Part shown: positions 42,352 through 51,942 of the stretch, piece by piece
How the letters are laid out: each line of letters starts with the position of its first letter
Position numbering within the stretch: the stretch's first letter is position 1
From: Clostridia bacterium
Lineage (GTDB): Bacteria; Bacillota; Clostridia; Oscillospirales; CAG-272
Length of the DNA: 64,000 bases
Direction of reading: 5' to 3'
Assembly (NCBI GenBank): GCA_017464805.1
Contig: JAFTYE010000005.1
Span: forward strand, 97,893-161,892
Notes under the pieces: generated by a model
Told to the model about the DNA's origin: nothing
Seen by the model: only the letters and a program-made list of their open reading frames with translations
Databases searched by the model: none
Program-made: the position numbers and the translations under genes

Positions 42352-42380
42352 TTGACAAGGCGGTGCTTTTGTGGTAAAAT
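42352..42380 (+). promoter_or_regulatory. Promoter candidate of the polysaccharide unit
   Basis: TTGACA (42352-42357), 17 bases, TAAAAT (42375-42380). It overlaps the best GTG start of the next gene. An inverted repeat TCTTGACTC/GAGTCAAGA (42311-42319 with 42338-42346) lies upstream. Confidence 0.65.
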
Positions 42381-43018
42381 TAAAGGGTAGAAAAATTCCT
42401 CTCGGCGATGGTGTGCGCCGATCGCTTCGCGTGCGGCTGTATCCTCTTGGCAAGCGTTGCCTTGATTTTGTGCTTGCCGCCTTTTTGCTCCTCGCCGCTA
42501 CACCGATGTTTTTTTTCGTGGCTTTCGGTATTCGCGTGACCTCATGCGGGCCTGTCCTGTTTCGTCAGGTGCGCGTCGGACGGCGACTGGAGCCCTTTCT
42601 CTTGTACAAATTCCGCACCATGTCCTGCCGCGCGCCGCACGATGTGGCCACGGCCGACATGCCCGCGCGGTATATCACGCGCTTCGGTCGCTTTTTGCGA
42701 AAAACCAGCTTGGACGAGCTTCCCCAACTCATCAACGTCCTGCGGGGGGACATGAGTCTGCTCGGACCGCGCCCCGTGGTGCTCTCGGAGGTCGAGCTGA
42801 TCGCCTCGCGTGCGGCGCGCGGTGTGTATACAGTGCGCCCCGGTATTTCGGGCCTAGCCCAAATTTCGGGCAGGGATCTGCTTTCCCCCGAGGAAAAGGC
42901 GCGTCTGGATTCCGAATACGTGCAACAGATGTCCTTTCTTAGGGACGTGCGACTATTTTTGTCTACTTGCCTCGCGGTCTTTTCCCGCCGCGATATCCGG
43001 GAGGGGAACATCTCATGA
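42371..43018 (+). CDS. Sugar transferase (monotopic phosphoglycosyl transferase, WcaJ/RfbP C-terminal type)
   Basis: A protein of up to 215 residues that moves a sugar-phosphate from a UDP-sugar onto undecaprenyl phosphate, the first step of surface-polysaccharide assembly. One membrane re-entrant helix (RCLDFVLAAFLLLAATPMF), then PVLFRQVRVG, YKFRTM, TSLDELPQLINVLRGDMSL with the catalytic Asp-Glu, and VRPGISGLAQISGRD. The start is unclear: GTG 42371 has AAGGCGG seven bases upstream but lies on the -10 of a good promoter; GTG 42407 or a rare ATT 42395 behind AAAGGG are alternatives. It begins a three-gene unit. Confidence 0.85.
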   Translation: MVKLKGRKIPLGDGVRRSLRVRLYPLGKRCLDFVLAAFLLLAATPMFFFVAFGIRVTSCGPVLFRQVRVGRRLEPFLLYKFRTMSCRAPHDVATADMPARYITRFGRFLRKTSLDELPQLINVLRGDMSLLGPRPVVLSEVELIASRAARGVYTVRPGISGLAQISGRDLLSPEEKARLDSEYVQQMSFLRDVRLFLSTCLAVFSRRDIREGNIS

Positions 43019-43043
43019 CCCCTTCACATATACAGGAGGCCTT

Positions 43044-44183
43044 ATGTACGAAACCGAATATAGCCAGCTCCTTTCGCTGATCGGGGCGCAGGTCGGCGGC
43101 GTGAAAACGCCCGTCGCCGTGTCGGATTACAAGACCCTGATCCTGCTTGCCAAGCAGCATAGCGTTCTCAATATTCTCTACTTCGCCTTAAAGGACGACC
43201 CGTGTTTGCCGCCCGAATGTCGCACGGTGCTGGAGCGGCAGCTCTTTTCCACCGCCCATCAGCAAGCATCGCAGGAGGTGGAGGCGAAGCGCGTGTTTGC
43301 CATGCTGACGCGCGAGGGGATCCGGCATCTCCCCATGAAGGGGGAGGGCATCCGTTCCCTGTATCCTGCGCCCGAGATGCGTATTTCCTGCGACGTGGAT
43401 ATCTACTACGACAAGGCCGCGCGTTCGCGCATGGACGAGCTGTTTGCCGCTCTCGGCTACGAAAAAGAGGAGTCCGACCCCAACCACACCGCCTACAAAA
43501 AGGGCTTTGTTTCCATGGAAATGCACCATAATCTCCTCACAGATTTTGACAATATCGACCGCTACTACCGAAACGTGTGGGATCGTCTGATCCCCGACGG
43601 CGAATTCGCCTTCCGCATGCGGGACGAGGATTTTTACATATATCACCTCGTGCATACGATGAAGCACTTTGCCCACGGCGGTACGGGTATCCGTTCGGTC
43701 CTGGATACCTATGTTTATCTGCACAAAAAGACCGACATGGATATGGCCTATCTGCGCGCGGAGCTGGAAAAGCTCGCCCTGTGGGACTTCCACCTGACCC
43801 TTGCGGAGCTTGCCGAGGTCTGGTTCGGCGGCATGGAAATGCCCGCCGATCTTGCGGGTGTGTCGGCGTATGTGCTGGACAGCGGTACCTACGGCAAGAC
43901 CCTGCACACGGTGACCAATCTGTCCTCCGGCTCGGGCGGCCGCCTCGGCTTTTATATTCGCCGCGCCTTTCCGCCCTACCGCTATATGGCGGAAAAGTAT
44001 CCCTCTCTTCGCCGTTTTCCGCCCGCGCTCCCCTTTTATTGGATCGGACGCATTTTCCGTGCCGCCTTCGGCGGGGAACGCTACATGGCAAATGAGGTCA
44101 AGGCCTCGGGCAAGGCGGATGCCGCCCTGCGCGAGCAGCTTTCTGCCGTGATGGCTCGTGCAGGTCTTGGCGAATACCGATAA
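43044..44183 (+). CDS. Nucleotidyltransferase-family protein (NTP_transf_5)
   Basis: A 379-residue protein of the PF14907 group. LPMKGEGIRSLYPAPEMRISCDVDIYY (about 96-122) has the conserved K-G and the metal-binding D-x-D of the polymerase-beta-like fold. Relatives are common in capsule and exopolysaccharide clusters, and a few are near lasso or sactipeptide genes; the reaction is unknown. AGGAGGCCTT precedes ATG 43044, 25 bases after the transferase gene. It may modify a sugar or phosphate in the polymer made with its neighbours. Confidence 0.82.
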   Translation: MYETEYSQLLSLIGAQVGGVKTPVAVSDYKTLILLAKQHSVLNILYFALKDDPCLPPECRTVLERQLFSTAHQQASQEVEAKRVFAMLTREGIRHLPMKGEGIRSLYPAPEMRISCDVDIYYDKAARSRMDELFAALGYEKEESDPNHTAYKKGFVSMEMHHNLLTDFDNIDRYYRNVWDRLIPDGEFAFRMRDEDFYIYHLVHTMKHFAHGGTGIRSVLDTYVYLHKKTDMDMAYLRAELEKLALWDFHLTLAELAEVWFGGMEMPADLAGVSAYVLDSGTYGKTLHTVTNLSSGSGGRLGFYIRRAFPPYRYMAEKYPSLRRFPPALPFYWIGRIFRAAFGGERYMANEVKASGKADAALREQLSAVMARAGLGEYR

Positions 44184-44196
44184 AGGAAAGGGAAGA

Positions 44197-45558
44197 ATGA
44201 AACTGTTAGACCGTATTCGAAGCTTTGCGGCCACCGAGGCCTTTATGCTTCTTTGCTTTATGGTGGCGTACGGATGCGTTGTGTTTGAGATCCCTGCCGT
44301 CGGTATCTGTCTGATGGCGGCGGTGCTGTGCCTGCTTTTTGTGATCTCGGACGATATCCTTCTGACCATCACACCCTTGCTTTTTTTGTGCTGCCTTGCC
44401 TTTTTGTGCACGGAGCAGTTGTTTTTGCTTTGGCTTTTGATCCCGCTGATCGGTACGCTTTTCTATCGCTTTGTCCGTAATCTGCGCCTTTCGCGACAGG
44501 CAAAGAACCTTTACTCGCTCCCGGGTCTGATCGCGGTCGCGGTCGCGGTGACGGTAGCAGGTCTGCTGGTGATCACGCCGGAGGAATACTTTCGTCCCAT
44601 CCCCTTTGTGACCGTGCTCTGCCTTGGGGTTCTGATGATCCCGATCTACCTGTTCTTCAAGGGAGGTATGGTCTGCCCCCGCTCCTACAACGTAGCCGAT
44701 CGGGTGTCGGGGATTCTGTATATGCTTGGTGTTTTTCTTGCGTTCATGATCCTGCGCTTGTTTATCGTGCATCCCGAGCTGTGGGATGCCGAGAATGTGG
44801 GCTTTGCTCTCTCCTCGCTTGCCTGGTGGCGAAACGGTGCTGCCACGCTGACAGTGATGGTTTTGCCCTTTATCTTTTACTATGCCGTGCATCATCATCC
44901 GATTCATTTGTTTTCGGTGATCCTGGTGTATGGAGCAACGGTGTTAAGCGGCTCGCGCGGCGGCCTGTTCTGCGGTGCGATCGAGATCTTTCTTTGTCTG
45001 ATCTATTTCGGGTATTATCAGAAAAAGCGCAGTCGTATCATCTGGCTGGTGCTTGCCGTTTGCGCGGTCCTTGTGCTGGTATTTCACCGTCAGTTCTGGG
45101 AGACCTGCCAGCATCTGTTCCGCCTGACGCTGGATCTTGATCTGCTTTTAAAGGAGGATCGTGTTCTTTTTGTTATCCGTTCTTTTGAAGATTTTCTCAA
45201 AAATCCGCTATTCGGCGTTGGCTTCGGATACGTAGGGAACTACGATATCCACGTGCTGAACGTGAACTGGTATCATTCACTCTTGCCGCAGATCATCGGC
45301 GGCATGGGGATCGTGGGTATCCTTGCCTACGCTTATCAGTTCATCATTCGTCTGCGTCTGATGGTTGCTGCGCCGCGCAACCCATATATGGGTGCCTTGA
45401 CCCTCGCCTATCTCGGCATTCTGATCTATTCGCAGATCGACCCGGGCCTCGTATCCCCTTACGCTATTGTGGCCACGGTGTTCTTCGTGTTGATGGAGGA
45501 GGAGTCGCACCCCGCGCTCCTCTTACCCCTAAAAAAGAAGAAAAAAGAAAAGGGATGA
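44197..45558 (+). CDS. O-antigen ligase/polymerase-family membrane protein
   Basis: A 453-residue protein with 11-12 TM helices. The Wzy_C-type signature appears as GATVLSGSRGGLFCG (SRGG) followed by a large outer loop (about 300-355) where polymer units would be joined. The start at ATG 44197 follows AAAGGGAAG. It ends the three-gene unit; with the phosphoglycosyl transferase it suggests synthesis of a simple surface polymer, though no ordinary glycosyltransferase or flippase is present here. Confidence 0.82.
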   Translation: MKLLDRIRSFAATEAFMLLCFMVAYGCVVFEIPAVGICLMAAVLCLLFVISDDILLTITPLLFLCCLAFLCTEQLFLLWLLIPLIGTLFYRFVRNLRLSRQAKNLYSLPGLIAVAVAVTVAGLLVITPEEYFRPIPFVTVLCLGVLMIPIYLFFKGGMVCPRSYNVADRVSGILYMLGVFLAFMILRLFIVHPELWDAENVGFALSSLAWWRNGAATLTVMVLPFIFYYAVHHHPIHLFSVILVYGATVLSGSRGGLFCGAIEIFLCLIYFGYYQKKRSRIIWLVLAVCAVLVLVFHRQFWETCQHLFRLTLDLDLLLKEDRVLFVIRSFEDFLKNPLFGVGFGYVGNYDIHVLNVNWYHSLLPQIIGGMGIVGILAYAYQFIIRLRLMVAAPRNPYMGALTLAYLGILIYSQIDPGLVSPYAIVATVFFVLMEEESHPALLLPLKKKKKEKG

Positions 45559-45581
45559 CCTCACGGCCATCCCTTTTCTTA
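45543..45581. terminator. Bidirectional terminator
   Basis: Stem AAAAGGGATG/CATCCCTTTT with A and T runs. It ends the polysaccharide unit and the facing two-component operon. Confidence 0.85.
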
Positions 45582-45983
45582 TTGCATCAGCTCCTCGGTG
45601 AGGCGAAGGATCTCGGGCGCGACCCGCTCCTGTTCCTTTTTCAGTATGCATTCGTAGATCGGATAGGCAAGGCAGATGAGCACCCCGCCCACAAGCCCCG
45701 TAAGGATCCCCACAGGCAGGGCCAGGACTCCCAGAGCAAGACCCAGCTCGGACATGATAAGGCTCATGCCGAGGCCAAGGATCAGCGAGCCGAGAATGCC
45801 GAATATCAGCGAAAAGATCTCTGCCTTTTGTGTGACACGGCGGTCAAGGCGGCGAAGCCGCGCCATCTTATCCTCTTCCATTTGCTTGGCGGGGGCGTAT
45901 TTTTCGCGGATGCGTTTCAGCTCCGCCTGCTCCCCCGCGGAGTAGGTGTAGTGAAAGCCTTCGCTACCTTGTTTGTTCTCCAT
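45579..45983 (-). CDS. Small two-TM protein, paralogue A of the local family
   Basis: A 134-residue protein. Cytosolic N-terminus with IREKYAPAKQMEEDKMARLRRLDRRV (about 25-50), two TM helices joined by a short loop (GILGSLILGLGMSLIM about 62-77, and GGVLICLAYPIYE), and a tail APEILRLTEELMQ. The same plan is seen at 50812-51186 and 51291-51658. Databases sometimes give this family a misleading reductase name; I see no catalytic motif. It is the last gene of the response-regulator/kinase operon and overlaps the previous gene by 20 bases. Confidence 0.78.
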   Translation of the reverse strand: MENKQGSEGFHYTYSAGEQAELKRIREKYAPAKQMEEDKMARLRRLDRRVTQKAEIFSLIFGILGSLILGLGMSLIMSELGLALGVLALPVGILTGLVGGVLICLAYPIYECILKKEQERVAPEILRLTEELMQ

Positions 45984-46857
45984 GTGAGCTCTCCTTTTGT
46001 AACAGTCGTAGTTCTCTTGTACCGCGTAGAATCATAAAGATCGCCATGATGATCAGAAATAACGACACGGCGGCTCCCGTTGTTCCCAGCATGATCAGGC
46101 GGAAGGTAGCGTCCTGTTCCTCGCCGAAGGTGGTCAGCATCGTGGACTCCAGCGTTAGCATCGAAACGCAGGCGGCGGCGAGGCCGATGACCTTTGATGC
46201 CGAGAAAACGGGACTCTTGTATCGGCGATAGCGTACCAGGTTGACGATGGCCACGGTAAAGGAGGTGAAGGTGTAGGCCGCCATGGCAATGGTCGTGATC
46301 TCGTGATGATGAAAAGTGCGTCCCCAGTAGATCATAAAAAAGATAATCAGTGACAGGGCAAGGTTCATCCATAACAGAAACTGTCCCGTCGCGCGAAAGG
46401 CACGTAGCTCGGCCTCCCGGCTCCCGCCGTTTTCCGCCATTCGCCGTAACAGGAAAAACCGTACCACGGCGAGCAACAAATAGTAGGCGGAAAGCGAATA
46501 AAACCAGAAGGAGGCGTGGTAAAAGCCAAGTCCCAGCTGTAATACCGCATACGCCGTATTGAAGAGCAGGGCGGCATACAGGGATGCCTTCGTCCGAAGA
46601 TGCGCGTTCTCCAGCCACACGCGAATGTAGCGGTTGTTCCCTTTGAATTGCCGAAAAAACGCAATGATAGCGGGTGTGCGTAAGCACAAAATGGTCAGCG
46701 TGTAGGCGGCAAAGGCATAGGAAATATAAGATGTGGTCGCCTCCGAACCGAGGAAGACCATCGAGTAGATGAGGAAAACCGTCGCAACGGGCACGAACAC
46801 AAGCAGAAGAGCTGTGGGCGGATATAAAAACGATTTACAGATTTTCTTCAGCTTCAT
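45964..46857 (-). CDS. Hypothetical polytopic membrane protein of the two-component operon
   Basis: A 297-residue protein with six to eight TM helices and no recognised motif. ATG 46857 lies within the end of the histidine-kinase gene (23-base overlap); a longer frame would cover more of the kinase and is unlikely. Its place directly after the kinase suggests a sensor partner, a transporter-like detector or an effector of the same stress response. Confidence 0.72.
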   Translation of the reverse strand: MKLKKICKSFLYPPTALLLVFVPVATVFLIYSMVFLGSEATTSYISYAFAAYTLTILCLRTPAIIAFFRQFKGNNRYIRVWLENAHLRTKASLYAALLFNTAYAVLQLGLGFYHASFWFYSLSAYYLLLAVVRFFLLRRMAENGGSREAELRAFRATGQFLLWMNLALSLIIFFMIYWGRTFHHHEITTIAMAAYTFTSFTVAIVNLVRYRRYKSPVFSASKVIGLAAACVSMLTLESTMLTTFGEEQDATFRLIMLGTTGAAVSLFLIIMAIFMILRGTRELRLLQKESSHGEQTR

Positions 46858-47932
46858 GGATTGCCCTCTTGATTCTGACGGTGAAAACCGAACCAATGCC
46901 CGGTGTGCTTTCCACACCGATCTCCCCCTGCAGGATGTCCACCACGCGCTTGACCAGTGCCAGCCCAAGACCATTGCCCTGCGTAGCGTGGGAGGAGTCC
47001 CCCTGATAGAATTTTTCAAAGATATGCGCGCCAACCTCGGGTGACATGCCACAGCCCGTGTCCATGACCTTCACTACCGCGTGATGCTCGGTTGCCGTCA
47101 AGGTAAGCGACACACGCCCCCCCGCTTCGGTGAATTTGAAGGCGTTGGAAAGCAGATTGTTCCAGACCAGCGAAAGCAGCTCCGCATCGGCCGAGACTGT
47201 CACGTCCTCGGCGATATCCGTTTGGATGTCGATGCCGCGGCTTTCCCACACGCTTTCATACTGCAAAAGGCACTCGCAAAGCTGCTCGCCCAGATCGTAG
47301 GTCTTCGCTTTCGGATAGATCTGCTGATTTTCCAGGCGATTCAGCTTGAGGATGTTCGTCATCATGTCCGAGAGTCGCCGGGAGGCCTCGGTAATCGCCT
47401 TGGCGTATTCGATCCTTTTTTCCTCGGGCAGATCGGGGGTTTGCAGAAGCGTGCCGTAGTTCTGCATCACGGCAAGAGGCGTTTTCATCTCGTGCGATAC
47501 GTTGGTGATGAAGTCGGTGCGGAGCGTTTCTACACCCGACAGTTCCTCTGCCATGTGGTTGATGCAGTCGATGATTTCGTTGAACTTGCCGTCGGTGGCG
47601 AATTTCGTGACCGCAGGAATGCGGACGGAAAAATCCCCCTGCATCATTTTTTCGGTCGCTTGTGTGATGTGGCGAACGGGCAGCTCTACCGTTAGGCGGC
47701 GGCGCACGGCGTCGACGACCGTGAACAGCAGGCTGATCAGCACTACGTTCAGAAAGGTTAGCTTAGCGGCGGCGTTCAGATTTTCGTCTGTCAGAGGAAT
47801 ATCCAGCGTGCCCGACAAAACCGACACGAACAGCATGGTGCAGCAGGTAATGACAAACGCGACGAGCAGAAAAAAGGTGAAATACCGATTGACCGCTTGC
47901 AAGACTCTCTTGAAGTGCCCCTCGCCCCTCAT
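46835..47932 (-). CDS. Sensor histidine kinase (HisKA/HATPase_c)
   Basis: A 365-residue membrane kinase. TM helices at about 19-39 and 59-75 flank a very short outer loop of about 20 residues, then HAMP (about 76-130), phosphorylated His147 in NVSHEMKTPLAV, N box VWNNLLSNAFKFT, G1 DTGCGMS and G2 GNGLGLALV. Such a small outer loop fits intramembrane-sensing kinases that respond to envelope stress or antimicrobials. It overlaps the response-regulator gene by four bases. Confidence 0.93.
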   Translation of the reverse strand: MRGEGHFKRVLQAVNRYFTFFLLVAFVITCCTMLFVSVLSGTLDIPLTDENLNAAAKLTFLNVVLISLLFTVVDAVRRRLTVELPVRHITQATEKMMQGDFSVRIPAVTKFATDGKFNEIIDCINHMAEELSGVETLRTDFITNVSHEMKTPLAVMQNYGTLLQTPDLPEEKRIEYAKAITEASRRLSDMMTNILKLNRLENQQIYPKAKTYDLGEQLCECLLQYESVWESRGIDIQTDIAEDVTVSADAELLSLVWNNLLSNAFKFTEAGGRVSLTLTATEHHAVVKVMDTGCGMSPEVGAHIFEKFYQGDSSHATQGNGLGLALVKRVVDILQGEIGVESTPGIGSVFTVRIKRAIHEAEENL

Positions 47933-48600
47933 TTGATCACCGCCTTGTAGCCAAGCCCGTGTACCGTCACGATCTCAAAATTCTCGCATGCGGCCAGCTT
48001 GCTGCGGAGCTTGGTCATGTACACGTCTACCGTGCGGGTGCTTGCTTGCGTGTCTGCATCCCAGAATTCGTCCATCAGCTGGGTGCGGGTAAAGGTCTTT
48101 TTCGGGTAGGAGAGCAGCTTGTACAGCAGGTTGAATTCCCGCGCGGTCAGCGGGATCTCCTCACCATCGAGATACACTGTGCGCTCGTCCGCATCCATCA
48201 GGAAATTTCCGATCTCCAGTCGATGGCTGGATGCAATTTTGGCACGGCGCAAGATCGCCCCGATACGCAGAAGCAGCTCGTCAAGGTCGATGGGCTTGAC
48301 CATGTAGTCGTCAATGCCCATGCGGAAGCCCCGCTGTTTGGAGGCAAGGTCGTCCCGTGCGGTCATGAACAGGATTGGAATTTCCTCGTTCAGCGAGCGC
48401 ACCGTGCGCGCGAATTCAAAGCCGTCGATGCGTGGCATCATAATGTCCGAAATAATCAGATCGAAGGTCGTTTTGTACATTTCATCGTAGGCTGCCTCCG
48501 CGTCAAGGCAACCTGTGGCCTCGTAGCCGCCCAGCTCCAGATAGGAGCATACCGAACGGTTCAGCTCCCGATCGTCCTCTACCACCAAAATCTTAAACAT
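47929..48600 (-). CDS. OmpR/PhoB-family response regulator
   Basis: A 223-residue regulator. Receiver domain 1-118 with acidic pair EDD, phospho-acceptor Asp52 in SDIMMPRIDG, Thr in FMTARDD and Lys in VKPID; winged-helix output domain about 128-223 (LTAREFNLLYKLLSYPKKTFTRTQL). It leads the operon regulator-kinase-membrane protein-paralogue A. A 54-bp block shared by the promoters of two nearby units (48704-48758 and 51202-51256) is a likely target. Confidence 0.94.
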   Translation of the reverse strand: MFKILVVEDDRELNRSVCSYLELGGYEATGCLDAEAAYDEMYKTTFDLIISDIMMPRIDGFEFARTVRSLNEEIPILFMTARDDLASKQRGFRMGIDDYMVKPIDLDELLLRIGAILRRAKIASSHRLEIGNFLMDADERTVYLDGEEIPLTAREFNLLYKLLSYPKKTFTRTQLMDEFWDADTQASTRTVDVYMTKLRSKLAACENFEIVTVHGLGYKAVIK

Positions 48601-48703
48601 ACGCGCGCCTCCTTCTTCAACTTGCTACGTCTATTGTATCACACAAATGTTAAAAATTTGTTTGTATTTTCATTTTCCTTGGACATTGGAATCTTTTTTT
48701 TGT

Positions 48704-48758
48704 TTTAACAAAACACAAACATTTCATCAAACTTTCCAAAACAAGGAGAGGGTAAGAT
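48704..48758 (+). promoter_or_regulatory. Shared promoter block, copy 1 (upstream of the cls unit)
   Basis: From TTAACAAAACACAAACATTT to the -10 TAAGAT (48753-48758). It matches 51203-51256 at 39 of 54 positions with no gap, so the distance to the -10 is identical. The -35 is poor, as expected for an activator-dependent promoter. Confidence 0.72.
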
Positions 48759-48793
48759 AGGAACGTGCGTGAAATCAAACGCGGAGGCTTGAC

Positions 48794-50359
48794 ATGAAAA
48801 GAACGATCGAATACCAGGTTAACGATAAGAAGGTGGAGAGGGAGATCAACTATATTCCCGTCCGTTACATCATCGCCGTTTTGATCACGGCACTCGAGGT
48901 CGTGGCGGTCATCGGCATTGTGGTCGCGCTTTGCTACTACGTGCCGTATTTCTATCTCGCCGCGTGGGTGACTGAGATCGCCTGTGTGATCAAGATCATC
49001 TCCTCGGATGACAATCCCGATTATAAGGTGCCGTGGCTGCTGTTCGTTCTCATTTTGCCGATCGCGGGTTTTATGCTCTATTTCCTGTTCTATTCCCGCA
49101 AGCTGCAAAAACGGTTCATTCGACGTCTTGACGAGCTGAAGAAGCATGGCTATCTCAAACAAGACGGGGAGCTTCTGCAAGCCCTTGCAAAAGAGGATGC
49201 CGTGGCGGCATCGCAGGCAAGAATGCTGACCGAGATCGCAGACACGCATGTCTTCACGAACACAAAACAGACCTACTATCCTCTCGGGGAGGATATGCAC
49301 ACCGCCCTGCTCGAGGATCTCAAAAAAGCAGAAAAGTTCATTTTTATGGAATACTTCATCATCGAGGAAGGGAAGTTTTGGAACTCAATTCTCGATATTC
49401 TGCGGGAAAAGGCCGCCGCAGGGATAACGGTGCGCGTGGTGTACGACGATATCGGCTGTATGAGCACCTTGCCGGGCGACTACGCGGGGATTTTGAAAAA
49501 GCAGGGCATCGAGGCGACTCCCTTTTCCCGTCTGCGCGGCAATGCCGACAGCGAGTTCAACAACCGCAGTCACCGCAAGATCACGGTCATTGACGGTAAG
49601 GTCGGGTACACGGGCGGTGTCAACATCGCCGACGAGTATATCAACGAGGTCGTTCGATTCGGTCACTGGAAGGATACGGCCATTCGCCTGGAGGGAGAGG
49701 CCGTGTGGGAGCTGACCCGCCTGTTTTTGACCGACTACGGCATCAACGTCAAAAATCTACCTACCATGCCACATAACTTCTACCCCACACAGTCCGACAT
49801 CCGTGAGGGCGGTTACGTCATTCCCTTTGGAGACGGCCCTCGTCCGCTCTACGAGCGGCGCGTCGGCAAGAGCGTGATCATGAACATGCTGAACAGTGCC
49901 ACGCGCTATGTGTACATGACCACGCCCTATCTCATCATCGACAACGATCTTTGCTCCTGCATCGAGGGTGCGGCCCTGCGCGGTGTGGATGTGCGTATCA
50001 TCGTACCGCACATTCCCGACAAAAAGCTCGTGTTTGGCATCACCCGTAGCTTTTACCGTCGGCTCATGGACGCGGGCGTTCGTGTGTATGAGTACGAGCC
50101 CGGCTTTATCCATGCCAAAAGCTATATCGCTGATGACAAGTATGCCATGATCGGCACCATCAATCTGGACTATCGTAGTCTGGTACACCACTTTGAAAAC
50201 GGTGTGTGGATGTACGGTAGCTCCTCGATTGGGGATCTTCGCTCGGACATCGAGAAAACGATGGAAAAGTCCATCCTCGTTACCTCCGATATGCTGAAAA
50301 CCAATCTTCTTTCCCGCGTCGTGCGTGCGGTGGTGAGAATCTTCGCACCGATGCTGTGA
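48794..50359 (+). CDS. cls: Cardiolipin synthase (phospholipase D family)
   Basis: A 521-residue membrane enzyme that joins phosphatidylglycerol molecules into cardiolipin. Two N-terminal TM helices (about 20-45 and 70-92, with a short third hydrophobic stretch between), then two HKD motifs: His260/Lys262/Asp267 in SHRKITVIDG and His440 in FIHAKSYIADD. GGAGG precedes ATG 48794. It starts a unit with an HD protein and a small two-TM paralogue and is driven by the shared promoter block, which suggests cardiolipin is adjusted as part of a membrane-stress response. Confidence 0.93.
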   Translation: MKRTIEYQVNDKKVEREINYIPVRYIIAVLITALEVVAVIGIVVALCYYVPYFYLAAWVTEIACVIKIISSDDNPDYKVPWLLFVLILPIAGFMLYFLFYSRKLQKRFIRRLDELKKHGYLKQDGELLQALAKEDAVAASQARMLTEIADTHVFTNTKQTYYPLGEDMHTALLEDLKKAEKFIFMEYFIIEEGKFWNSILDILREKAAAGITVRVVYDDIGCMSTLPGDYAGILKKQGIEATPFSRLRGNADSEFNNRSHRKITVIDGKVGYTGGVNIADEYINEVVRFGHWKDTAIRLEGEAVWELTRLFLTDYGINVKNLPTMPHNFYPTQSDIREGGYVIPFGDGPRPLYERRVGKSVIMNMLNSATRYVYMTTPYLIIDNDLCSCIEGAALRGVDVRIIVPHIPDKKLVFGITRSFYRRLMDAGVRVYEYEPGFIHAKSYIADDKYAMIGTINLDYRSLVHHFENGVWMYGSSSIGDLRSDIEKTMEKSILVTSDMLKTNLLSRVVRAVVRIFAPML

Positions 50360-50790
50360 TGGAAAAGGAATTTATTCTCCTCGCAAGGGATATCATCCGT
50401 TCCGAGGACTTTCAAAAAACGAAAAACCAGCGACATCACGTGCGGGGAACGGTGTACGGACATTCGCTCAAGGTTGCCTATCTGTGCTATCGGCATCACA
50501 AGCTTTTCCACATGAAAATGGATGCCCGTGAGCTGGTGACGGGGGCATTGCTACACGATTTTTACCTGTACGATCGGCAACGAAAGGACGAAAAGCACCG
50601 ATTTCATTGGCTTCGACATCCGCGCACGGCTCTTGAAAATGCCAAGAGCCGATACCCGCTTACCGATGCCCAACAGGACATGATACGGCGACACATGTTC
50701 CCCGTGACACCCGTCCCCCCGAAAACCAAGGCAGGCTGGCTTGTCTGCTTTTACGACAAGGTGGCCGCCGTGGACGATCGCTTCGGATAA
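50359..50790 (+). CDS. HD-domain phosphohydrolase-like protein
   Basis: A 143-residue protein with a single HD domain: HVRGTVYGHSLKVAYLCYRHH, LVTGALLHDFYLYD (HD pair near 71-72), and a later His in RRHMFP. Small HD proteins of this type are common in Clostridia and are of unknown substrate. ATG 50359 overlaps the cls stop by one base (TGATG), a sign of coupled translation. Confidence 0.82.
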   Translation: MEKEFILLARDIIRSEDFQKTKNQRHHVRGTVYGHSLKVAYLCYRHHKLFHMKMDARELVTGALLHDFYLYDRQRKDEKHRFHWLRHPRTALENAKSRYPLTDAQQDMIRRHMFPVTPVPPKTKAGWLVCFYDKVAAVDDRFG

Positions 50791-50811
50791 TATTCAGGAA
50801 AAGAGAGAAGT

Positions 50812-51186
50812 ATGGAGAATCGAGACACCTTTACGTATCAATACTCGGCCAAGCGAAACCGCGAGGTCGAGAATATTCGGAAAAAGTATATGCCAAAGGA
50901 GGAAAACAAGCTGGATACCCTGCGGGCTTTGGATCGACGTGTGCAGTCGGCAGGCCAGCTGCAGGGGCTGACACTCGGCATTCTGGGTTGCCTTTTGTTC
51001 GGCATCGGTATGTGCTTCGGTCTTGGCGTGTTTGCGGGAGTGACCTGGCTTTCGATCCCCTTCGGGATCATCGGTATCGCCGTCATGATTCCCGCTTATC
51101 CCGTGTCGAGACATATTGCCAGGAAAACAAAAACGGAGCTTACCCCGCGCATCTTGCAATTGTCCGAGGAGATTATGCGCTCATGA
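50812..51186 (+). CDS. Small two-TM protein, paralogue B of the local family
   Basis: A 124-residue protein: IRKKYMPKEENKLDTLRALDRRV, then TM1 with GILGCLLFGIGMCFGLG, TM2 with IAVMIPAYPVSRH, and tail TPRILQLSEEIM. It aligns along its whole length with the products at 45579-45983 and 51291-51658. It lies 21 bases after the HD gene, so it is the last gene of the cls unit. No catalytic residues are apparent; a membrane sensor or scaffold role is possible. Confidence 0.78.
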   Translation: MENRDTFTYQYSAKRNREVENIRKKYMPKEENKLDTLRALDRRVQSAGQLQGLTLGILGCLLFGIGMCFGLGVFAGVTWLSIPFGIIGIAVMIPAYPVSRHIARKTKTELTPRILQLSEEIMRS

Positions 51187-51201
51187 GGGAAAATTTTTCG
51201 G

Positions 51202-51256
51202 ATTAACGAAACAAAAACATTTTGCCAAAAAATCAACAACAAGCGGACGGTATAAT
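51202..51256 (+). promoter_or_regulatory. Shared promoter block, copy 2 (upstream of paralogue C)
   Basis: From TTAACGAAACAAAAACATTT to the -10 TATAAT (51251-51256). It is the counterpart of 48705-48758, with identical spacing. Confidence 0.72.
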
Positions 51257-51290
51257 AAACTCGTAAAAAGAAAACGAAACGAGGTACTTA

Positions 51291-51658
51291 TGATGAACAA
51301 GAACGATCAGCAATTTATCGCGCAGAAGATCCGCACGCAGTATATGGAGAAGGAGAGCACAGAACTGGACGCTCTGCGCGTCCTTGACGAAAAGGTCAAA
51401 CGACCCGCCAATATCTTTGCCTACGTATTCGGCAGCATCGGTGCCATTGTCATGGGCACGGGCATGAGCCTGGTCATGACTGACATCGGTTCGACTCTGG
51501 CCATCGCCAACACCCTGCCGCTCGGTGTGACCGTCGGTGTGGTCGGTCTTGTCATGGCTCTTATCAATTATCCGGTCCACAAGAATATCCTGAACGGTCG
51601 CAAAAGGAAATACGCTGCCGAGATCCTTGCCATCAGCGAAAGGATCATGGGAGAATAA
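51291..51658 (+). CDS. Small two-TM protein, paralogue C of the local family
   Basis: A 122-residue protein: IRTQYMEKESTELDALRVLDEKV, TM1 with GSIGAIVMGTGMSLVM, TM2 with GLVMALINYPVHK, tail AAEILAISERIMGE. Same plan as paralogues A and B; the GMSLVM stretch is nearly the same as in A. GAGGTACTT precedes two adjacent ATGs (51291, 51294). It leads a two-gene unit behind the shared promoter block. Confidence 0.8.
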
Positions 51659-51660
51659 GC

Positions 51661-51942
51661 ATGAATTTTATGAAAGGGAGTATACGAAAAATGGGAAACT
51701 TTTTTAAGAACGCATTCAACGACATGAAGGAAAGTGCAAGGGCACAGCACGAGGTGGACAAGGCCAACCTCGCCGCCGTCAAGGCCGAATCCAAGGCCCA
51801 GTGGGAGGAGGCCAAGGCCATGGGTAAGCCCGAGACCCGCAAAGCCATGATGCAGGCAGAGCGCGATAAGCAGATTGCCGAGGCAAACGAAAGAAAAACT
51901 GCCGCCGAGGCACGCATCCGCGCTGCGAAGGGAGAGAAATGA
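51661..51942 (+). CDS. Small charged coiled-coil protein
   Basis: A protein of up to 93 residues, almost entirely helical and rich in Ala, Lys and Glu: MGNFFKNAFNDMKESARAQ, then VDKANLAAVKAESKAQWEEAKAM and later EANERKTAAEARIRAAKGEK. Starts at 51661 (GGGAG eight bases upstream) or 51691 (AAAGGGAG ten bases upstream) are both possible. The amphipathic N-terminus could touch the membrane. It begins two bases after paralogue C, so the two are surely co-expressed. Function unknown; phage-shock-like scaffolding is only a guess. Confidence 0.72.
   Translation: MNFMKGSIRKMGNFFKNAFNDMKESARAQHEVDKANLAAVKAESKAQWEEAKAMGKPETRKAMMQAERDKQIAEANERKTAAEARIRAAKGEK

Follow-up and report, generated by a model that had tools for sequence, protein, structure and literature searches.

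In the BceRS/GraRS-type intramembrane-sensing systems, a short-loop kinase is combined with an OmpR-type regulator and a transporter partner, kinases of this class being recognized by two N-terminal transmembrane (TM) helices joined by a loop of under about 25 residues. A short loop is also present in LiaS, whose partners include LiaH, a coiled-coil relative of PspA, and LiaR, a NarL/LuxR-type regulator with a GerE domain. At odds with the last point, LiaR is termed a REC-wHTH protein in the excerpts of the literature consulted (PMC11237479), in which LiaF is described as a membrane protein auxiliary to the LiaS kinase (PMC3543457, PMC11237479). A third case is EdsRS-ClsT of Bacillus anthracis, a two-component pair that, in the part of the account consulted, switches on a cardiolipin synthase along with its own operon when the envelope is damaged (PMC7157781). 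The present analysis concerns a locus at positions 45579-51942 of a 64-kb stretch of clostridial DNA (the window), in which a response regulator (RR), a histidine kinase (HK), a cardiolipin synthase gene (cls) and three paralogous two-TM (2TM) proteins, A, B and C, are distributed over three units: RR-HK-polytopic-A, cls-HD-B and C-coiled coil.

From the distribution of a promoter box in the window, in the assembly and in relatives, it is concluded that the three units very probably constitute one autoregulated regulon. The whole is best explained, with modest confidence, as an envelope-stress regulon, in which the short-loop kinase and the OmpR-type regulator would drive cls, 2TM and coiled-coil outputs. 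The features concerned are as follows, in window coordinates.

45579-45983, minus strand: A, small 2TM protein, last gene of the RR-HK-polytopic-A unit (open reading frame, paralogue search)
45964-46857, minus strand: polytopic membrane protein, 297 aa (no known family)
46835-47932, minus strand: HK, histidine kinase with HisKA and HATPase_c (Pfam/NCBIfam)
47929-48600, minus strand: RR, OmpR-type response regulator with Response_reg and Trans_reg_C (Pfam)
48645-48662, minus strand: box of RR-HK-polytopic-A, AACAAATTTTTAACATTT (perfect pattern match)
48707-48724, plus strand: box of cls-HD-B, AACAAAACACAAACATTT (33-bp model match at 48704-48736, 39.5 bits)
48794-50359, plus strand: cls, cardiolipin synthase (TIGR04265)
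50359-50790, plus strand: HD-domain protein, rare accessory member (Pfam)
50812-51186, plus strand: B, small 2TM paralogue, last gene of the cls unit (paralogue search, alignment)
51205-51222, plus strand: box of C-coiled coil, AACGAAACAAAAACATTT (33-bp model match from 51202, 26.5 bits)
51290-51658, plus strand: C, small 2TM paralogue (paralogue search, alignment)
51661-51942, plus strand: coiled-coil/amphipathic protein, 93 aa, alternative start 51691 (no known family)

All nine genes described for this interval by a first-pass annotation made from the sequence were found when the open reading frames were checked; its coordinates for A and B hold, and its start for C (51291) is one base off. 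The first unit lies on the minus strand and the other two on the plus strand, and each contains one of the three paralogues, as had been claimed, behind a box of its own.

This box is a direct repeat with the core AACAAAAC-N3-AACATTT, located upstream of the -10-like sequences (recognized by eye) of the three promoters. Written as the pattern AACNAAWYNNNAACATTT, it has three perfect matches in the window, compared with 0 expected from shuffles, and exactly three perfect copies in the 1.76-Mb assembly (91.7% complete), one before each unit, the assembly holding five further sites with one mismatch. A palindromic one-mismatch relative of the box is found on both strands at G000:C7:141164-141185.

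In relatives, the region upstream of C carries a 33-bp element, aTTAACAAAAC.CAAACATTTCacAAAAaAtTC, from which a model was trained on 34 C loci with the window excluded, 27 of the 34 scoring at least 15 bits by construction. When both strands of the window are scanned with this model, just two sites reach 9 bits, namely those at the cls (39.5 bits) and C (26.5 bits) promoters. Across the relatives, sites of at least 15 bits lie upstream of 3/10 cls, 6/27 coiled-coil and 5/82 A genes and of no RR (0/73), HK (0/77) or polytopic gene (0/72), the frequency in random 150-mers of the same loci being 6/1600, true sites possibly included. Of the seven cls genes without a 15-bit box, four are directly behind C or the coiled-coil gene on the same strand, one is at a locus edge, one (L044, 3.5 bits) has a recognizable box, and one is another cls type. 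A hairpin-like GC-rich sequence was noticed by eye between cls and the preceding system gene at five loci (L057, L070, L076, L107 and L035). The RR box has a variant core, AAC.AA(A/T)(C/T)...AACA(T/A)TT, which precedes RR in 57/70 relatives and also in the window, occurs in 0/231 regions upstream of HK, polytopic or A genes, and is found in 4/1600 random 150-mers. That one regulator of this locus reads both box forms is what we infer rather than observe, since the RR box is a variant.

Independent tests were made in further genomes. The strict pattern TTAACAAAACNNAAACATTTC, with at most one mismatch allowed, occurs at 20 sites, spread over 17 of the 60 genus genomes, versus one for the reversed pattern; 17 of these sites are directly before C, B, coiled-coil, RR or cls genes, one is before HD, one is before the gene of a small protein, S, and one is before nothing recognized. 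The 20 include the cls site of the window itself and three sites on contigs also in the training set (L243, L245 and L248). At position 1501 of the stretch L233 (genome G033), a perfect strict box has no recognized system gene behind it, and the flanking genes are presumably of the spoVA type. Among 20 further cls regions of relatives, the box is present before all five system-type cls genes (17.9 to 26.6 bits) and before 0/15 of other types (best 3.8 bits; Fisher p 6e-5 versus system type), the scores having been seen before the division between system type (859-971 bits) and the rest (286-588 bits) was drawn. One boxed system-type cls, that of L262, is on a 2.6-kb stretch in which no other gene of the system occurs.

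The third test used an order-wide sample, in which the C profile has a match at E <= 0.001 in 75/197 genomes and one locus was taken from each of 60, weaker matches being dropped. These 60 loci comprise 24 with a two-component pair, 29 with a TetR gene within 1.5 kb of the C-like 2TM gene, and 7 with neither, at one of which RR and kinase genes are cut by the contig end. Outside the TetR class, the box stands before 13/18 C genes, or before 11/16 without the contigs common to the training loci (L158 = L047, L163 = L072), and it stands before 3/5 non-TetR C genes that are unlinked to the pair in the stretch examined. TetR-class C genes carry it in 0/26 cases, counted over those of the 29 loci with enough upstream sequence and a C score above 110. 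Co-regulation of the three units, which the first-pass annotation had made a condition of its proposal, is thereby, in silico, very probable through the shared box. It would be very improbable, on the same data, that the units are neighbours without a common function and that cls, HD and the small genes are there by chance: although neither HD nor cls is linked in most relatives, perfect copies of the box occur in the assembly only at these three promoters, and the box is also found before a cls and before C genes unlinked to the regulator in the stretches examined.

With the A/B/C profile, a match at E <= 0.001 was obtained in 33 of 59 related genomes, a few of them weak. The relatives compared are the best 80 of 332 stretches of a species collection encoding relatives, all titled metagenome-assembled genome (MAG), and many are from the guts of deer, sheep, goat and other ruminants; linkage was counted at the 46 of these 80 loci that have at least 5 kb upstream of RR. 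RR-HK-polytopic-A is a constant block in them, commonly preceded immediately by C and the coiled-coil gene in the same orientation and occasionally accompanied by B and cls. In the window this block is turned, which makes RR and cls divergent. Behind RR follow HK (46/46), the polytopic gene (45/46) and A (46/46), the last being expected because the loci were found with the A/B/C profile. Within 5 kb upstream of RR lie another 2TM gene (30 loci), C (23), the coiled-coil gene (21), S (9), cls (8) and B (7). The corresponding figures in the order sample (n=20) are HK 20, polytopic 18, A 18, another 2TM gene 12, C 11, coiled coil 8, S 5 and cls 1. Two loci, L107 and L114, carry directly downstream of RR-HK-polytopic-A an additional 2TM, coiled-coil and cls unit in convergent orientation. 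Given that the genomes are mostly MAGs, genes that appear unlinked or missing may reflect contig ends.

Eight cls genes near the block in 230 kb compare with one in 415.6 kb of control sequence beyond it (Poisson p 1e-7; 2e-5 at doubled control rate). The first-pass annotation had expected homologues of the family to co-occur with both the two-component pair and cls. The former is only half borne out, being the case at the 24 order-wide loci of the two-component class and not at the 29 with an adjacent TetR gene or the 7 with neither; the latter is borne out as an enrichment over control, in a minority of loci.

The constancy of the block bears on a rival arrangement modelled on LiaF and LiaS (PMC3543457, PMC11237479), in which the polytopic protein and A would serve the kinase as sensory or inhibitory partners, cls and the coiled coil would be the only outputs, and B and C would be decoys or feedback copies of A. 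The presence of the polytopic gene behind HK in 45/46 loci and of A in 46/46 (each 18/20 in the order sample) is in keeping with it, but homologues of the 2TM and polytopic proteins share 14 TetR-class loci that lack this kinase, and separate boxes precede C and B genes, so that this arrangement is considered rather unlikely. Because 2TM and polytopic homologues co-occur without this kinase in 2TM-TetR-polytopic operons, the two proteins are more likely an effector core than mere accessories or sensors of the kinase.

This second context deserves description in its own right. The 14 polytopic homologues, out of 29 TetR-class loci, lie within 3 kb and are mostly of 190-240 aa, and the one TetR-class regulator scanned contains TetR_N and TetR_C_8. 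In Eubacterium eligens, the 2TM homologue beside TetR is labelled hypothetical protein; in Roseburia sp. 831b, the 2TM gene, whose product is labelled dihydropteridine reductase, adjoins the TetR gene, and the latter is followed by an MFS transporter gene. An operator for the TetR class is not claimed, because an ACAAC..GTTGT palindrome is full in just 3/28 promoters. In a phylum-wide search, 7/299 genomes had a match at E <= 0.001, the genome of the window included; the match L123 is noise. Outside the order, a divergent 2TM form of about 123 aa with two GMC-type segments was found in 5/298 genomes (L118-L122), each with a divergently oriented TetR gene (174-184 aa) next to the 2TM-like gene, a polytopic homologue in L118, L120 and L121, and an S-like protein behind, by its own match, in L119, L121 and L122. 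These divergent relatives lend support to a 2TM-TetR-polytopic core and represent a possible third form of the system.

The exchange of the regulator between TetR and the two-component pair, together with the MFS transporter gene of Roseburia sp. 831b, could also be accommodated by a module conferring resistance or immunity to one narrow class of compounds that attack membranes (antimicrobial peptides, bile acids or amphiphilic drugs), with the 2TM and polytopic proteins acting directly on the compound and TetR or the pair sensing it. No transporter gene is present in the three window units, however, other genes of the relatives being without systematic annotation, and general membrane care is suggested by the partners that recur, a lipid synthase and amphipathic proteins. 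Such a module is regarded as unlikely.

As for the 2TM family itself, a search of the genome with A retrieves C (E 1.9e-20) and B (E 1.0e-19), and its two remaining rows are at E 0.026 and 0.11. A shares 45% identity with B and 37% with C, 27 columns are invariant in the alignment of the three, and the proteins are true paralogues, as had been stated (E about 1e-19 to 1e-20); the first-pass annotation proposed further that they might read or set a common membrane property, possibly as hetero-oligomers. The motifs once described as common to all three need adjustment: IRxKY is present in A and B and reads IRTQY in C, and the GMS of the first TM helix is GMC in B. In the tree, whose bootstrap had not settled, the two-component-class C genes are grouped with support 96/91 and A with B with 100/99, the TetR-class genes form the remaining rows, and B is placed inside the A branch with moderate support; three rows labelled B (L209, L215 and L216, 23-31 bits) are false assignments, and L033 and L036, labelled as two-component class, are copies of TetR-class genes. 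At L084:1054-1764, B and the coiled coil are in one open frame with a junction that resembles a translated ribosome-binding site, and a lost stop codon may account for it better than a genuine fusion.

None of A, B and C has a Pfam or NCBIfam match above the cut-off, and the same holds for the polytopic and the coiled-coil proteins of the window. Only scattered weak matches were obtained with 23 C-type, 21 polytopic and 21 coiled-coil family members against Pfam and with 71 2TM members against 22 listed NCBIfam families; these matches of single members, with a best E of 0.00049 in Pfam and of 3.4e-5 in NCBIfam (at most 6/71 members per family), are ascribed to chance resemblance among hydrophobic helices. 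Against PDB, the best E values of the profiles are 0.32 (2TM), 0.14 (polytopic) and 0.61 (coiled coil). The identification of C-type proteins as dihydropteridine reductase was rejected, no reductase (short-chain dehydrogenase) domain being found in the 23 C-type members with Pfam or in the 71 2TM members with the 22 NCBIfam families; the name is unsupported because these are membrane proteins and C-type members have no reductase match.

The hydrophobic cores of HK, 17-residue windows at 20-36 and 60-76, are separated by about 20 residues and followed by a weak HAMP match, which fits the small outer loop attributed to the kinase and, with two N-terminal TM helices and a short loop, places it among the intramembrane-sensing kinases. 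In the orthologues, the median core-to-core distance is 19 for the 69 of 71 that give two segments (5-95% range -10 to 25, the crude method having merged some segments). The DNA-binding domain of RR matches Trans_reg_C at E 6.4e-22 and GerE at just E 0.22 (Pfam).

The window cls scores 328.5 bits against TIGR04265 (cut-off 290) and is the sole match above cut-off in the assembly. HD homologues are uncommon, any match being found in 8/60 genus genomes, the own one included; the closest (66%, in G534) is beside cls and C. The homologue of G537 (51%; L235 near 1501-2097) lies directly behind its own one-mismatch box, in a 3-kb stretch where no cls was recognized, and because of this box HD is suggested to be a genuine though rare member of the regulon. 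The first 18 residues of the coiled-coil protein have a mean hydrophobic moment of 0.46 compared with 0.20 for the remainder (37 sequences, including three copies of the one in the window). In many relatives, and not in the window, the small protein S, with 11-residue repeats (VVEGYKKIENG), is encoded upstream of C or B; 33 matches corresponding to 27 distinct open reading frame strings were collected, for example in L045, L054, L060, L066, L071, L085, L086, L091, L093, L096, L108, L136, L216 and L242. One of two S members scanned gives a sub-threshold match to Pfam Synuclein (E 0.032, 14.9 bits, cut-off 23.3), and matches to PDB are non-significant, alpha-synuclein being among them (E 1.3); S is possibly a convergent membrane-binding 11-mer helix. 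At the A end of the locus, the genes at 42371-45558, presumably sugar transferase-, nucleotidyltransferase- and O-antigen-ligase-like, end beside A in convergent orientation, and an exopolysaccharide cluster may border the system.

In the envelope-stress regulon proposed here, a membrane disturbance would be sensed by the short-loop kinase, probably together with membrane partners, and the kinase would phosphorylate the OmpR-type regulator, as expected from its family. The regulator would then bind the direct-repeat box observed upstream of the three promoters and raise its own operon, cls-HD-B and C-coiled coil. Cardiolipin would presumably increase through the single TIGR04265-type cls of the assembly, the amphipathic coiled-coil protein would be peripheral, on the inner leaflet, and A, B and C might serve as 2TM adaptors that hold the coiled coil, as LiaI does for LiaH/PspA, or that form complexes with the polytopic protein. 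A more specific version is put forward tentatively and with some doubt: phage-shock-like membrane repair by undescribed families, in which 2TM adaptors would bring amphipathic peripheral proteins to the damaged membrane, namely the coiled coil and, in relatives, the synuclein-like 11-residue-repeat protein S, supplemented by stress-made cardiolipin, with the core wired to either the two-component pair or TetR across gut Clostridia.

It should be noted that several points weigh against the envelope-stress regulon. The pattern AACNAAWYNNNAACATTT was composed after the three window sites had been seen, and therefore the three independent tests matter more. The RR promoter of the window scores -7.4 bits with the C-trained model, under which no RR promoter reaches 15 bits (0/73), and the RR-type core occurs in only 11/34 C and 1/10 cls promoters; in the first relatives set, just the 3/10 cls promoters mentioned reach 15 bits. 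The strict box is absent from 43/60 genus genomes, several of which have the family, and linkage of cls is a minority trait (8/46 and 1/20 loci). The family itself has no match at E <= 0.001 in 26/59 related and 122/197 order genomes. Moreover, the stress signal, the lipid effect and the contact between 2TM and coiled-coil proteins are drawn from analogies.

What would be new is an envelope-stress two-component regulon whose membrane parts, kinase and cls excepted, belong to undescribed families. No description of a gene set of this composition was found in the open-access literature searched, in line with the earlier proposal of a single system without a described counterpart. Nameless families (2TM, polytopic, coiled coil and, in relatives, S) are united in one defined regulon for which a binding site is predicted, and their function becomes directly testable. 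If the reading is true, a stress-inducible cardiolipin branch would be added to uncultured gut Clostridia, which are exposed to bile acids and antimicrobial peptides, and the misleading database label 'dihydropteridine reductase' would be corrected. The two-component/TetR swap around a common core also indicates which parts are the likely effectors.

Compared with the BceRS/GraRS-type systems, the locus has the same combination of short-loop kinase and OmpR-type regulator; unlike them, its window units lack an ABC transporter gene, and the undescribed polytopic protein plus A takes the place of that partner. As in EdsRS-ClsT, a two-component pair would be coupled to a cardiolipin synthase, which here adjoins the pair and carries the predicted box, whereas EdsR has a GerE-type DNA-binding domain and both Eds operons contain ABC transporter genes (PMC7157781, as far as the consulted part of the account goes). 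Membership in EdsRS-ClsT fails because the regulator here is OmpR-type and none of the nine window genes (0/9) encodes an ABC transporter; in addition, 2TM paralogues and a coiled coil, both present here, do not feature in that part of the account (PMC7157781). The C-type homologue WP_075681297.1 of Roseburia sp. 831b (Lachnospiraceae), the protein labelled 'dihydropteridine reductase', is 34.8% identical over 95% of the C-type query from L102 and adjoins TetR, not a two-component pair.

Membership in LiaFSR-LiaIH/PSP fails because no PspA, LiaF or LiaI family match was obtained: PspA is not matched by the window coiled coil (Pfam, E up to 1) or 21 family members (E up to 0.01), no LiaF or LiaI-LiaF-TM match was given by A, B, C, the polytopic protein, 23 C-type or 21 polytopic members (Pfam), and neither PspC nor Toastrack appears in the Pfam tables of any system part. 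The presence of cls among the outputs is a further difference, and the OmpR-type regulator would be another if LiaR is of the NarL/LuxR type with a GerE domain. The layout is nevertheless alike, in that a membrane kinase is accompanied by an accessory membrane protein and a small TM protein stands beside a peripheral stress protein, and the response would raise its own locus, here as predicted from the box before RR (PMC3543457, PMC11237479, both in excerpt). By analogy, the regulon may be read as a module against envelope stress that operates in the manner of LiaFSR-LiaIH/PSP but lacks the membrane families of those systems, and it looks like a possible unstudied route of cell-membrane protection in an uncultured gut bacterium.

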